Shown: piece by piece, positions 42,563-48,208 of the stretch
Numbering within the stretch: the stretch's first letter is position 1
Layout of the letters: each line of letters starts with the position of its first letter
DNA from: Sandaracinus amylolyticus
Lineage (GTDB): Bacteria > Myxococcota_A > Polyangia > Polyangiales > Sandaracinaceae
Assembly: GCF_000737325.1 (NCBI RefSeq)
Contig: NZ_CP011125.1
Location: 5,394,001 to 5,458,000, forward strand
Direction: 5' to 3'
Length of the DNA: 64,000 nt
Translations under genes and position numbers: made by a program
Notes under the pieces: generated by a model
What the model was told of the DNA's origin: nothing
Databases searched by the model: none
The model's input: only the letters and a program-made list of their open reading frames with translations

Positions 42563-42919
42563 TCAGCGCTCCCTGAGCTTCTTCGCGGCGGCCTTCTCGT
42601 CCGGGTGCTCGTCGAGGAACGCCTGGAAGCTCTCGTCGCTGATCTCGACCGCGACGTCGCCCTGGATCTTCGCCTGGCATCCGAGCCGCGACGACGGGCG
42701 TACGTCGAATGCCTTGTCGAGGATGTCGAACTCCTCGTCCTCCATCTCCGACGTCGCGTCGAAGCCCTTCACGACGTAGACGTGGCAGGTCGAGCACGCG
42801 CACACGCCGCCACAGCGATCGCCCTCGGGCGCGCCGATCTTCTTCGCGGCCTCGAGGATCGACGTGCCCTGGGGGACTTCGACCTCGAGGTTCTCCTTCA
42901 CGAACCGGACCTTCGGCAT
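42563..42919 (-). CDS. fdx: ISC-type 2Fe-2S ferredoxin
   Basis: Adrenodoxin-like ferredoxin of 118 residues, electron donor for Fe-S cluster assembly. The cluster ligands are C36, C42 and C45 (CGGVCACSTC) and C81 (SRLGCQ), the ISC spacing CX5CX2C. C40 is an extra Cys. The N-terminal beta grasp is PKVRFVKENLEVEVPQGTS. It is the last gene of the isc operon. Its ATG overlaps the hscA stop by one base. Confidence 0.92.
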   Translation of the reverse strand: MPKVRFVKENLEVEVPQGTSILEAAKKIGAPEGDRCGGVCACSTCHVYVVKGFDATSEMEDEEFDILDKAFDVRPSSRLGCQAKIQGDVAVEISDESFQAFLDEHPDEKAAAKKLRER

Positions 42920-44826
42920 CAGTCGTCTCTCGCCTCGGGAGGCATGTGCGCGTCGATGCCCTTCGCCGACGCGGTGTCCTTCTCGATCGTCTCGAGCTCG
43001 CGGCCCGCGAGCGCGTTCTTGATCGAACGATCCATACGGCGCCCGGCGAACGCGTGGGTCGCGTCGTCGAGCTCTTCGATGCGCGCCGCGATGATGCGGT
43101 GCTCGTCCTTCGCGGCCGCATCACGAAGACGCTGCATCGCGCGATCGATGACGGTGCGCTCGCTCGACTCGAGGAGATCGCCGTCCTCGGTGAGCGCCTT
43201 CTCGGTCGCGTGCAGGACGCGCTCCGCCTCGACCTTCTGCTCGCGGAGCGTGCGCGCGGCGATGTCGTCCTCGCCGTGCTCGTACGCGTCCATCAGCATC
43301 TTCTCGATCGCGGCGTCGTCGAGCCCGTAGCTCGGCTTCACCTCGACGTCCTGCGTGAGGCCCGTCGTGCGCTCCTGCGCGCTCACGTGGAGGATGCCGT
43401 CGGCGTCGACGCGGAAGCGCACCTCGAGGCGCGGCAGGCCCGCAGGCATCGGCGGGATGCCTTTCAGCGTGAAGCGCGCGAGCGAGCGACAGTCCTCCGC
43501 GAGCTCACGCTCACCCTGCACCACGTGGATCTCGAAGCCGGTCTGGTTCTCGGCGTAGGTCGTGAAGACCTGCGCCGCCTCGCACGGGATCGCCGTGTTG
43601 CGCGGGAGGATGCGCTCCACCACGCCGCCCATCGCCTCGATGCCGAGCGAGAGCGGGAGCACGTCGAGCAGCAGCACGTCCTCGCGCGGTCCGCTCCCAC
43701 CGAGCATGTCGGCCTGCGCGGCCGCGCCCATCGCGACGACGAGGTCGGGATCGATGTCGGCGAGAGGCTCCTTGCCGAACATCGAGGCGACGTACGCACG
43801 GACCGCGGGCACGCGCGTCGCGCCACCGACGAGGATCACTCCGTCGATCCGATCCGGCGTGGTCTGCGCATCGCGCAGCGCGCGACGGCACGCGATGCCG
43901 GTGCGCTCGAGCAGCGGCTTGATCACCGCGTCGAAGTCCGCGCGCGTGATGCGGAACGTCGTCTTCGCGCCGTCGTGCTCCAGCTCGGTCTCGACGGTGT
44001 CGTGATCGGTGAGCGCGTGCTTGATCGAGCGCGCGGCGTGCAGCGCGTAGCGGACCGCGTGAGGGCTCGTGTCGTCGCGACCGAGCGCCACGAGCACCTT
44101 CTCCGCGAGCGCGCGATCCATGTCGTCGCCGCCGAGCTGGCTGTCGCCGCCGGTCGAGCGCACCTGGAACACGCCGTCGTCGAGATCGAGGATCGTCACG
44201 TCGAACGTGCCGCCGCCGAGATCGTAGACCGCGAAGCGCCCGTTCTGCTTCTTGTCGAGGCCGTACGCGAGCGCCGCCGCGGTGGGCTCGTTGAGGAGCC
44301 GCAGCACCTCGAGCCCCGCGAGCTTCGCGGCGTCCTTCGTCGCCTGTCGCTGTGCGTCGTCGAAGTACGCGGGCACGGTGATCACGGCGCCACCGACGCT
44401 ACCGAGATCGTCTTCCGCGCGCTCCTTCAGCTCGCGCAGGATCTCGGCGCTCACCTCGATCGGCGTGACCACCCTGCCCTCGCCGACCTCGAAGCGCACC
44501 ACCGGGCCGCTCTCGCTCGCGAAGCGGTACGGGCCCATGCGCCGCGTCTCGGGATCGTCGGCGCCGCGCCCCATGAAGCGCTTCACGCTGACGATCGTGT
44601 CGCGCGGATGATCGAGCGCGAGCTCCTGCGCGCGATGACCGACGACCACGACGCGCTCGCCCGTGTAGTGCACGACGCTCGGCACGAGCGCGTGACCGTC
44701 GCAGTCGCGGATCACCACCGGCGCGCCGGTCGGCGACACGTACGCGACGAGCGAGTTCGTCGTCCCGAGGTCGATCCCGATCGCAGTGGGCTTCGCGGCC
44801 GGGTCGTGGATCTGCAGCAGGCTCAC
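42919..44826 (-). CDS. hscA: Fe-S cluster chaperone HscA (Hsp70 family)
   Basis: Hsp70-type ATPase of 635 residues specialised for transferring Fe-S clusters from IscU. Nucleotide-binding motifs: [12 protein letters not shown] (about 17-28), [16 protein letters not shown], and [14 protein letters not shown]. The substrate-binding domain follows with [20 protein letters not shown] and NTAIPC, and a C-terminal helical lid. It lies after hscB with a 4-base overlap and before fdx, the classic hscBA-fdx order, which supports HscA over DnaK. Confidence 0.92.
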
Positions 44827-45338
44827 GAGAGCGCCTCTTCTTCGATGACCTCGACCTCGTCGAGGAAGCGGCGGTAGTAGCGCATCTTCGAGAGCACGTC
44901 GGCGATGCGCGCGGGCTCCGCCTCGCGCTCGAAGAGCGTGGTGATCTCCTGGCGCGCGCGATCGTTCTCGCGACGCACCTTCTCCGCGAGCGCGCGTGCC
45001 TTCCCGACGTCGCGCGCGCTGCGCGCCTCGGAGAGCGCCTCGCGTCGCTCCATCACGTCCATCAGGAACTCGGGGTCGGCGGGCTGGCCGTCCTTCACGT
45101 CGTGGCCGCGGAGCGCGAGCAGCGCGCGAGCGCGCGCGAGATCGTCGCGCAACGTGCGGTACGCCTCGTTCACCTCGACGGCCTTGCTCAGCGAGAGGCG
45201 GCGCTCCTGCGCGCTCGCGCCGACGAAGCGGTCGGGGTGCAGGGCCTTCTGCAGCTCGCGATATCGACGCTCGATCTCCTGCGCGTCGAGATCGAAGCGC
45301 GCCGGAAGGCCCAGCGTGCGGAACGGGTCGGTGCTCAT
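44823..45338 (-). CDS. hscB: Fe-S co-chaperone HscB (J-domain)
   Basis: J-domain co-chaperone of 171 residues that delivers IscU to HscA. The J domain carries the HPD tripeptide at 34-36 ([11 protein letters not shown]) with family residues [20 protein letters not shown]. The C-terminal three-helix bundle binds IscU ([18 protein letters not shown]). It overlaps hscA by 4 bases, so translation is coupled. A gap of 34 bases separates it from iscA. Confidence 0.93.
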
Positions 45339-45372: not shown

Positions 45373-45762
45373 TCAGATCGAGAAGCTCTCGCCGCAGCCG
45401 CAGCCCTTCTTCTCGTTCGGGTTCTGGAACTTGAAGCCGTGGCTCATCAGCTTCACCTCGTAGTCGAGCACCGAGCCGCGCAGGTACACGAGGCTCTTCG
45501 GGTCGACCACGACCTTCAGCGCGCCACCCTCGAACTCGAACACGTGATCGCGATCACGGATCCGATCCGCGAACTCGATCACGTAGCTCGCGCCCGAGCA
45601 GCCGCCGCCACGAACGCCGAGGCGCAGCGCGGCCGTGGGCGTGCCGCGGCGCTCGATGGCCTTCTTCGCCATCTCGACCGCCTTCGGCGTGAGATCGATG
45701 TCCTTCGCCGGCGTGCTCACCGGCTCGGTCGTCTCGGGCGTGCTGCTCTCGTGCGCTTCCAT
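45373..45762 (-). CDS. iscA: A-type Fe-S carrier IscA
   Basis: Fe-S carrier protein of 129 residues. The three conserved Cys are C55 (GGGCSGASY) and C121/C123 (KKGCGCGESF). The fold starts at IDLTPKAVEMAKKAIERRG. An N-terminal extension of about 20 residues (MEAHESSTPETTEPVSTP) is unusual for the family. It lies 7 bases after iscU and transfers clusters to apo-proteins. Confidence 0.92.
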   Translation of the reverse strand: MEAHESSTPETTEPVSTPAKDIDLTPKAVEMAKKAIERRGTPTAALRLGVRGGGCSGASYVIEFADRIRDRDHVFEFEGGALKVVVDPKSLVYLRGSVLDYEVKLMSHGFKFQNPNEKKGCGCGESFSI

Positions 45763-45769
45763 GATTCGC

Positions 45770-46174
45770 TTACTTCTGCTCGGCCTTCTTCGCGGCCTGC
45801 TTGCGACGGTAGTCCTCGATCGCGCTCTTGATCGCGTCCTCGGCGAGCACCGAGCAGTGGATCTTCACCGGCGGGAGGTTGAGCTCCTTCACGATCTCGG
45901 TGTTCTTGAGCGACATCGCCTCGTCGACGGTCTTGCCCTTGACCCACTCGGTCGCGAGCGAGCTCGACGCGATCGCGCTGCCGCAGCCGAACGTCTTGAA
46001 CTTCGCGTCCTCGATGACGTTCGTCTCGGGGTTCACCTTGAGCTGCAGGCGCATCACGTCGCCGCACGCCGGCGCGCCGACGAGCCCGGTGCCGACCGTG
46101 TCGTCTTCCTTGTCGAGCGTCCCGACGTTCCGCGGGTTCTCGTAGTGATCGATGACCTTGTTCGAATACGCCAT
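45770..46174 (-). CDS. iscU: Fe-S scaffold IscU
   Basis: Scaffold on which new Fe-S clusters are built, 134 residues. Cluster Cys are C37 (GAPACGDVM), C64 (FGCGSAIASSS) and C107 (VKIHCSVLAEDA). The HscA recognition sequence LPPVK is present at 100-104. The N-terminus MAYSNKVIDHYENPRNVG is typical. It starts 10 bases after iscS. Confidence 0.95.
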   Translation of the reverse strand: MAYSNKVIDHYENPRNVGTLDKEDDTVGTGLVGAPACGDVMRLQLKVNPETNVIEDAKFKTFGCGSAIASSSLATEWVKGKTVDEAMSLKNTEIVKELNLPPVKIHCSVLAEDAIKSAIEDYRRKQAAKKAEQK

Positions 46175-46184
46175 CTGCAGCTCC

Positions 46185-47411
46185 TCAGTGGGCCGTCCAC
46201 TGGATCGTCTTGAGGTCGACGCCGTCCTTCCACATCTCGTAGAGCGGCGACATCTCGCGCAGGCGCTTCACCTGGCGAATCACGAGGTCGGCGACGTAGT
46301 CGACTTCCTCTTCCGTGTTGAACCGGCCGAGGCCGAAGCGGATCGACGAGTGCGCGAGCTCTTCGTCGACGCCCAGCGCGCGCAGCACGTAGCTCGGCTC
46401 GAGGCTCGCGCTCGTGCACGCGCTGCCCGAGCTCACGGCGACGTCCTTGATCGCCATCAGCATCGCCTCGCCCTCGACGAACGAGAACGAGACGTTGAGG
46501 TTGCCCGGGTGGCGCCACGGATCGTCGGCGCCGTTCAGGTGGATCTGCTCGATGTTGTCGAAGAGCTTCTTGCGAAGCCGCTCGCGCAGACCGAACGAGT
46601 GCGCGCGGTCCTTCTCGTACTCCTTCACGAGGATCTCGGAAGCCTTGCCCATGCCGACGATCCCCGGGACGTTGAGCGTGCCCGAGCGCATGCCGCGCTC
46701 GTGACCGCCGCCGTCCATCTCCGCGACGATGCGCACCCGCGGCTTGCTGCGGCGCACGTAGAGCGCGCCCACGCCCTTCGGGCCGTACATCTTGTGCGCC
46801 GAGAGGCTCGCGAGATCGACGTTCATCTTCTCGACGTCGAACTCCATGCGACCCGCGCCCTGCACCGCGTCGGTGTGGAACAGGATGCCGCGCTCGCGCG
46901 TGAGCTTGCCGATCTCGGCGATCGGCTGGACCGTCCCGATCTCGTTGTTGCAGAGCATGATCGAGACGAGGATCGTCTTGTCGGTCAGCGCCTTCTTCAC
47001 GTCGTCGGGCGAGACCTGGCCCTTCTGATCGACGTCGAGGTACGTGACGCGGAAGCCCTCGCGCTCGAGGCGCTTGCACGTGTCGAGCACCGCTTTGTGC
47101 TCGGTGCGCGACGTGATGATGTGATCGCCCTTCTCCTTGTAGAAGTGGGCGACGCCCTTGATCGCGAGGTTGTCGCTCTCGGTGGCGCCCGAGGTGAAGA
47201 CGATCTCCTTCGAGCTGCCCGCGCCGATCAGCTTCGCGACCTGATCGCGCGCGTACTCGACGGCCTCCTCCGCGGCCCAGCCGAACGCGTGGTTGCGCGA
47301 TGCGGCGTTGCCGAAGTGCGAGGTGAAGAACGGCATCATCGCCTCGAGCACCCGCGGGTCGACGGGCGTCGTGGCGTGGTTGTCCATGTAGATCGGAAGC
47401 TTGAGCGTCAT
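46185..47411 (-). CDS. iscS: Cysteine desulfurase IscS
   Basis: PLP enzyme of 408 residues that takes sulfur from cysteine for Fe-S assembly. Seen: [17 protein letters not shown] at the start, PLP Lys K207 in [12 protein letters not shown], and the mobile catalytic Cys C332 in [14 protein letters not shown]. The C-terminus has the group I ending (KTIQWTAH), typical of true IscS. It starts 7 bases after the MerR regulator and is first of the assembly genes. Confidence 0.95.
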
Positions 47412-47418
47412 CTCGGGA

Positions 47419-48006
47419 TCACTCCGCGCCGTCGGAGGCGGTCGGATGGAAGCCGGCGACGAGCACCGGCGGATGCGTTCCTTCGTCGTGGCGATCGCAG
47501 CTCGGGCACTCGTGCACGACGCGCTGCGGCTGGCAGCTGTCGCACGTCGCGAGGTACTCGAGGCTGCGCACGAGCTCGCGCTCGAGCTCGTGCAGGCGCG
47601 CGATCTGCGCGCGGGTCTCGTCGAGCTTCTGCTCGAAGACCTCGGTGACCTTCTTCATCGCGCCGGGCGCGGAGCCGCTCGAGCCCCAGCTCGCGAGGAG
47701 ATCGCGGATCTCGGGGAGCGAGAGACCGGCGTCCTGCAGGCGCGTGATCCACTCGACGCGAGTGACCGAGTCCGACGAGTAGAGCCGATAGCCGGCGTCG
47801 GTGCGGCGCGCGGGCTCGAGCAGGCCGATCTCTTCGTAGAGGTGCAGCGCGCGGACGGTCTTGCCGGTGCGCTTGGCGAGCTCGCCGACCCGGAGCGGCT
47901 CGACGTCGTGCGTCGTGCACGTCTCGACGCGCGGCGACGCCACGTCCGCCGCGATGGGCAGGCGGCGCACGGTCTTGCCGGGCGGGAGCTCGAATCGAGT
48001 GGTCAC
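47419..48006 (-). CDS. Cys-rich MerR-family regulator leading the isc operon
   Basis: Regulator of 195 residues. The winged HTH spans about 38-80 ([36 protein letters not shown]). A coiled dimerisation helix (about 120-150) ends in a CX2C-X8-CX2C group: C155, C158, C167 and C170 (CDSCQ, CPSCD), with another Cys at 30. These may bind Zn or an Fe-S cluster. It sits where IscR stands in many bacteria and is 7 bases from iscS, so it is probably the operon's own regulator. The start is GTG at 48006, but no ribosome site is seen; a start near 47955 is possible. Confidence 0.82.
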
Positions 48007-48027
48007 GGGGTTCGGAGGTTGGAGTCA

Positions 48028-48092
48028 AACCCTCACGTACGGGTAAGGGTTGAGCCGAGCTGAGGCATAGGGGGCGGCGGAATCGGTGTCAA
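48028..48092 (-). promoter_or_regulatory. isc operon promoter and dyad operator
   Basis: On the minus strand TTGACA (48092 to 48087), a perfect -35, and TATGCC (48069 to 48064) are 17 bp apart; transcription should start near 48057. Just downstream lies the dyad AACCCT-N12-AGGGTT (48028-48051), a possible operator for the MerR regulator, placed to block early elongation. Confidence 0.6.
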
Positions 48093-48208
48093 GGCGCGCA
48101 CCGGCCCAGCGGCCGGGATGGCGGACGTGGCGGCGGGTGGCGGGCGGACCGTCAGGACGCCCTGGCGAAATCATTGATGATTTCGGCGTACTAGCGACGG
48201 TACGGCGT

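Follow-up and report, generated by a model that had tools for sequence, protein, structure and literature searches.

What regulates Fe-S cluster assembly in Sandaracinus amylolyticus, in which a MerR-family gene stands before the isc operon in the position of iscR? The question arises from a stretch of 64,000 nucleotides of its genome (the window, which means this whole stretch), for which a sequence-only reading had proposed that a cysteine-rich MerR protein acts in place of IscR. To our knowledge, most of what is known about the control of Fe-S assembly comes from Rrf2 proteins and SufR. The Fe-S-loading repressor families described earlier are the Rrf2 proteins IscR, RisR and RirA and the cyanobacterial-type SufR. 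The published myxobacterial model is RisR, in a species that has both ISC and SUF, and SUF has been stated to be the sole system in most Deltaproteobacteria (PMC9973013). In the openly accessible literature we found no MerR regulator of isc or suf.

The isc genes of the window, identified with family models, are complete and in the order iscS-iscU-iscA-hscB-hscA-fdx, with gaps of at most 34 bases and two overlaps (Table 1). The best match of Fdx is its own equivalog model, yet its score is under the cut-off of that model. The MerR gene lies upstream, with a 7-base gap between its stop and the start of iscS; coordinates, cysteine motif and family models agree with the earlier description of a Cys4 MerR gene directly before a complete isc operon. 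It is the only regulator gene adjoining the isc genes in this genome. The sequence-only reading had seen no Rrf2-family IscR in the window, and had named a separate iscR elsewhere that binds this promoter as one finding that would tell against it. The absence extends to the entire 10.3-Mb genome, in which no IscR- or RisR-like Rrf2 protein, and so no separate iscR, was found. The sole Rrf2 gene over the Pfam cut-off (G000:C1:4558181-4558741, listed at G000:C1:4558241) adjoins cysK. It was rejected as an IscR, being without the three-cysteine site and under the IscR and CymR cut-offs, and is probably a regulator of cysteine metabolism. No SufB/D core was found in the genome either, which leaves ISC as the only recognised Fe-S assembly system there.

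Table 1. Features of the MerR-isc locus, in positions of the window
Feature	Position	Strand	Remarks
-35 box TTGACA	48087..48092	minus	by reading; perfect match
presumed -10 box TATGCC	48064..48069	minus	by reading; weak
operator AACCCTTACCCGTACGTGAGGGTT, 24 bp	48028..48051	minus	~+6 to +29 from predicted start
Cys4 MerR-family regulator gene	47419..48006	minus	GTG start at 48006, stop at 47419, 195 aa
MerR protein layout (residues)			1-36 variable N-terminal tail; 38-110 winged HTH; 113-153 dimerization helix; 155-170 CX2C-X8-CX2C
iscS, cysteine desulfurase	46185..47411	minus	above IscS cut-off
iscU, scaffold	45770..46174	minus	above IscU cut-off
iscA-like A-type carrier	45373..45762	minus	passes TIGR00049 subfamily cut-off, fails IscA equivalog
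hscB co-chaperone	44823..45338	minus	above curated cut-off
hscA chaperone	42919..44826	minus	above curated cut-off; 4 bp overlap with hscB
fdx, [2Fe-2S] ferredoxin	42563..42919	minus	1 bp overlap with hscA

The regulator is a member of the MerR family (PF13411, 61.9 bits against a cut-off of 21.6; PF09278, 52 bits), and a family-model search gave no match of the protein to the Rrf2 domain. It falls outside every named subfamily tested. The SoxR model TIGR01950 scores 48.3 bits against a cut-off of 116.9 and the motif is CX2C-X8-CX2C, not CX2CXCX5C; the CueR, CadR-PbrR, ZntR and MerR metal-sensor equivalogs score 61-67 bits against cut-offs of 143-168. The four cysteines, which read C155-D-S-C158-(8)-C167-P-S-C170 in the protein of the window, are invariant in an alignment of 73 MerR homologues, and nearly all remaining invariant positions are in the DNA-binding domain. 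H173, after the two CX2C pairs, is frequently conserved and is missing in Nannocystis-type members, which keep all four cysteines. The AlphaFold model of the protein aligns to HiNmlR, CadR, SoxR and CueR with Z of 10-13. It predicts a MerR fold with the Cys4 group immediately past the dimerization helix, at what would be the ligand position of SoxR, CueR and CadR (metal-site comparison per PMC9909328). CadR, ZntR and CueR are among the nearest relatives in both sequence and fold.

The regulator is gained and lost together with ISC. Among 57 relatives, an orthologue (E at most 4e-38) was found in 39 of 39 genomes with ISC and in 0 of 18 without it (39/0/0/18, with one IscU gene that is split over contigs included in the count); Fisher's p is 3e-15 for genomes that are not independent. 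The 18 relatives without MerR and IscU carry SUF, and the change between MerR-ISC and SUF is seen even within the family to which the window belongs. One SUF locus was read in detail, and there an Rrf2 gene above the ‘SUF system regulator’ cut-off precedes sufB. ISC and SUF are almost mutually exclusive in the order, there being one weak SUF match in an ISC genome among the 57 relatives; M. xanthus differs from this in that it has both.

Conservation of the gene order and of the cysteine set in Myxococcota had been suggested as a check, and both are found: the cysteines are the invariant ones described above, and in 73 of 75 genomes the regulator gene shares the strand of iscU and precedes it by 1.25-1.8 kb, and in the remaining two the genes are on separate contigs. 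These 75 are the genomes with both genes among 284 Myxococcota genomes, in which MerR was found in 85 and IscU over the cut-off in 99. Two families account for most of the 24 genomes with IscU and no MerR. For one of them, f25, two loci were read, and in both an Rrf2 gene that has three cysteines takes the exact MerR slot (L126:3995-4393, L128:2886-3278); in an IscS tree the f25 sequences fall among the MerR-linked ones with modest support. It looks as though one regulator family has here been exchanged for another. A scan of named relatives with one genome per species gave 80 loci (Sandaracinus, Labilithrix, Nannocystis, Polyangium and many MAGs), and iscS is downstream of MerR on the same strand in 77 of them; one stops at a contig end. 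Among named sequences, the IscS closest to that of the window comes from an uncultured Sandaracinus. Two of the 80, from Candidatus Eisenbacteria MAGs, have the order merR-iscA-sufC-sufB, to which the longer one adds sufD-sufS-sufU. The Eisenbacteria MerRs are in the same clade (100/100 for the isc/suf/iscS-linked group) and have the same operator. The locus L113, labelled as a Klebsiella pneumoniae MAG, carries a myxobacterial merR-isc operon and is evidently mislabelled. In family f48 (L119, L120, L121) a relative of MerR that has kept the Cys4 group stands before a single IscS-like gene (36-41% identity) that has neither iscU nor any further isc gene beside it. Family f37 (L123, L124, L125) has a second copy of a Cys4 MerR gene that is not near isc and is preceded by a TTGAC and a dyad of its own; its neighbours in L123 and L125 are a deoxynucleoside-kinase-like gene and one that resembles QueG, an Fe-S enzyme.

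The putative operator is conserved as well. The sequence AACYCTTACGNNNNCGTAAGRGTT is upstream of 84 of 86 non-redundant merR genes, with matrix scores above 12, the highest score in shuffled regions being 4.8. When the 57 whole genomes were searched with a degenerate pattern at up to one mismatch, sites were found in 30 genomes, every one of them MerR-bearing, and no site within one mismatch was found in the 18 MerR-less genomes. All sites are at merR-isc, bar one orthologous site in three species of the genus g30, which lies ~65-70 bp before a gene passing the cut-off of ErpA, an A-type Fe-S carrier. Weaker but clear matrix sites precede erpA in three more genomes from two families (G032, G022, G015), and the erpA genes of six MerR-less genomes examined have no operator site. 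Because the only other home of the operator is another Fe-S assembly gene, this is independent evidence of function. The predicted targets of MerR are exclusively Fe-S assembly genes, isc, suf and erpA, and the operator predicts a small regulon, that is, isc, plus erpA in some clades.

In the window, the dyad AACCCT-N12-AGGGTT was indeed found just past the promoter boxes, where the sequence-only reading had placed it, and it is the sole match there at up to three mismatches (0.01 expected). It is unique in the 10.3-Mb genome, the next best sites having three mismatches and poor matrix scores. The promoter had been called strong, which holds for the perfect -35 box and overstates the rest: the -10 box, after a spacer of 17 bp, agrees with TATAAT at 3/6 positions only, and a sigma-70 consensus scan requiring 4/6 at the -10 box found no promoter in this region. 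The promoter, with a predicted transcription start near 48057, and hence the exact position of the operator, should be read as predictions. A three-mismatch site 43 bp before the rrf2-cysK gene was considered as a target, and with a matrix score of -1.8 it was treated as chance. The erpA gene of this genome has no operator site, and the regulon here appears to be the merR-isc operon alone. A perfect 20-bp palindrome, CGAAATCATTGATGATTTCG, is found at 48166-48185, before a divergent comEC-like gene, and is partly kept in the congener L005.

The proposal that a MerR protein stands in place of IscR is supported by the co-occurrence, the adjacency, the conserved operator, the site at erpA and a genome with neither an IscR-type Rrf2 protein nor SUF. 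MerR is very probably the dedicated regulator of the isc operon, and it probably represses it; that an Fe-S cluster is its signal is the part we favour less firmly. Taken whole, our best reading, to which we give a probability of roughly 0.6, is that of a MerR-family feedback repressor of its own operon, with an Fe-S cluster loaded on the Cys4 group. A MerR dimer would bind the 24-bp dyad at ~+6 to +29 and stand in the way of RNA polymerase; the promoter, with its 17-bp spacer, would require no untwisting. The Cys4 group at the end of the dimerization helix would most likely receive its cluster from the ISC proteins. With an ample supply of clusters, loaded MerR would repress isc; when iron or clusters are short or oxidised, empty MerR would release the DNA and isc expression would go up. 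From the operon, the four cysteines, the operator and its predicted position, the co-occurrence, the further site at erpA and the link of the regulator to SUF operons, all of which are read from DNA sequence, we infer the binding of the operator, the repression, the Fe-S cluster and the form of MerR that binds DNA. The ISC, SUF and erpA targets share only their product, which makes Fe-S feedback through the Cys4 group the simplest reading.

The position of the operator bears on whether MerR represses or activates. In 36 of the 84 loci a TTGAC box precedes the operator by 38-44 nt, which would put the dyad at about +5 to +30, and in 8 of the 84 it precedes it by 26 nt, so that the -10 box overlaps the left arm of the operator; both spacings are predicted repressor positions and the geometry fits simple occlusion. 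The geometry is not uniform, since several genomes of family f5 have a second dyad upstream, around the TTGAC box, and the pooled operator alignment gave no fixed-distance promoter consensus because the spacing varies among clades. SoxR, in work by Hidalgo and Demple from 1997 that PMC9909328 lists, reportedly became a repressor once its spacer was shortened. Canonical MerR activators bind inside a spacer of 19-20 bp and untwist the DNA (PMC9909328). The window, with its predicted 17 bp spacer and a dyad past the -10 box, differs from this, as do many homologues, and the canonical geometry was rejected on the operator positions across loci; repression, which the earlier reading had preferred to untwisting, is supported by the operator position in dozens of loci. 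It could still be argued from the family rule of 19-20 bp spacers (PMC9909328; PMC5045206), and from the TTGAC that touches the edge of a dyad in some f5 genomes, that an unrecognised promoter has the dyad in its spacer, where liganded MerR would untwist the DNA and turn isc on. We consider this quite improbable, as the TTGAC of the 36 loci, with its 17-bp spacer, is too far upstream for a spacer operator, the operator of the 8 others begins inside the -10 box, and no conserved -10 box was seen past the dyad. Still less probable is an autoregulated MerR of some other function that merely shares the isc operon: it would account for the MerR before a lone IscS-like gene in f48 and for the second copy not beside isc in f37, and is opposed by the strict gain and loss together with ISC, the SUF operons that it heads in a different phylum, the operator site before erpA and a genome without an IscR-type Rrf2 protein.

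What the cysteines bind is a separate matter. CX2C-X8-CX2C is a common zinc pattern too. It is possible, though in our view unlikely, that the regulator and operon are as proposed but that the Cys4 group binds zinc, in a structural role or as a redox switch of the zinc-thiolate type, with oxidants or metal and not the supply of clusters as the input. The two CX2C pairs followed by the frequently conserved H173 look zinc-like, and the closest sequence and fold relatives include CadR, ZntR and CueR. There is also a second CX2C-X8-CX2C MerR clade, conserved in the order (G000:C1:9097850-9098263, L132, L134 and L136-L143) and present in the window's genome as well, which is distinct in the tree from the isc-linked MerR. 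Its neighbours are GTP cyclohydrolase I/II-like (folE) genes and genes for a Lon-N-domain protein, which have no evident connection to Fe-S clusters. The existence of this clade means that the motif predates its presumed isc role or extends beyond it; the motif alone therefore does not imply Fe-S sensing, and zinc or thiol sensing becomes possible for the isc MerR. It is plausible that the cysteines sense the status of the clusters, and this idea is weakened by the Cys4 proteins beside the GTP cyclohydrolase genes. Against zinc, the predicted targets are only the Fe-S assembly genes isc, suf and erpA, Nannocystis-type members have all four cysteines and no His173, and it is cluster occupancy that the characterised isc regulators of M. 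xanthus and E. coli sense (PMC9973013).

The proposed feedback repressor may be viewed, by inference, as a functional counterpart of IscR and RisR and not as their relative. Like IscR, the Rrf2 protein of E. coli and its relatives, MerR is encoded by the first gene of the isc operon, has cysteine ligands and has a conserved predicted operator at the isc promoter, and negative feedback is predicted for it. It differs in its MerR fold, in having four cysteines in place of the CX5CX5C-H of IscR, in its operator and in having seemingly one or two targets, as against the global regulon of IscR. RisR of M. xanthus is an Fe-S repressor that lies over the -10 box and start site of isc and represses when loaded (PMC9973013). 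It belongs to Rrf2 subgroup IS6 and resembles MerR in its phylum and in regulating isc near the start site, where repression by MerR is likewise presumed. Unlike MerR it is an Rrf2 protein encoded with suf, controls both isc and suf and recognises the palindrome TNGAC-N7-GTCCN (PMC9973013), whereas the window's genome is without SUF and its operator is unrelated. SoxR, a [2Fe-2S] protein, shares with MerR the fold and, according to the model (Z about 11), the Cys4 group right after the dimerization helix, but it has the CX2CXCX5C motif, senses redox state and is an activator whose dyad lies between the -35 and -10 boxes. CadR/PbrR, ZntR and CueR are the best family-model relatives and have dyads of a similar flavour, the operators of CadR/PbrR having ACCCT-AGGGT arms; unlike MerR they control efflux genes from promoters with 19-20 bp spacers. 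Precedents within the MerR family for occlusion at ordinary promoters are CarH/CarA and GlnR/TnrA, of which CarH is found in myxobacteria (PMC9304148), although their sensory domains and targets are other than those of the window's MerR.

On balance we lean, by a little, towards a third independent family in which Fe-S loading, here on a MerR-fold Cys4 group, represses Fe-S assembly; it would have been recruited once, would act as a roadblock, and would have spread with ISC through Myxococcota and moved to SUF in Eisenbacteria. If this is true, the Cys4 group may represent a new kind of Fe-S sensor site for the MerR fold, and the protein would act as a start-site repressor. The replacement of a regulator in an essential pathway offers a testable case. 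Our results suggest that a swath of Myxococcota lives on ISC alone, under what we take to be a regulator of the MerR family, whose operator is sharply defined, and that a large myxobacterial group appears to have evolved a separate switch for the essential Fe-S pathway.
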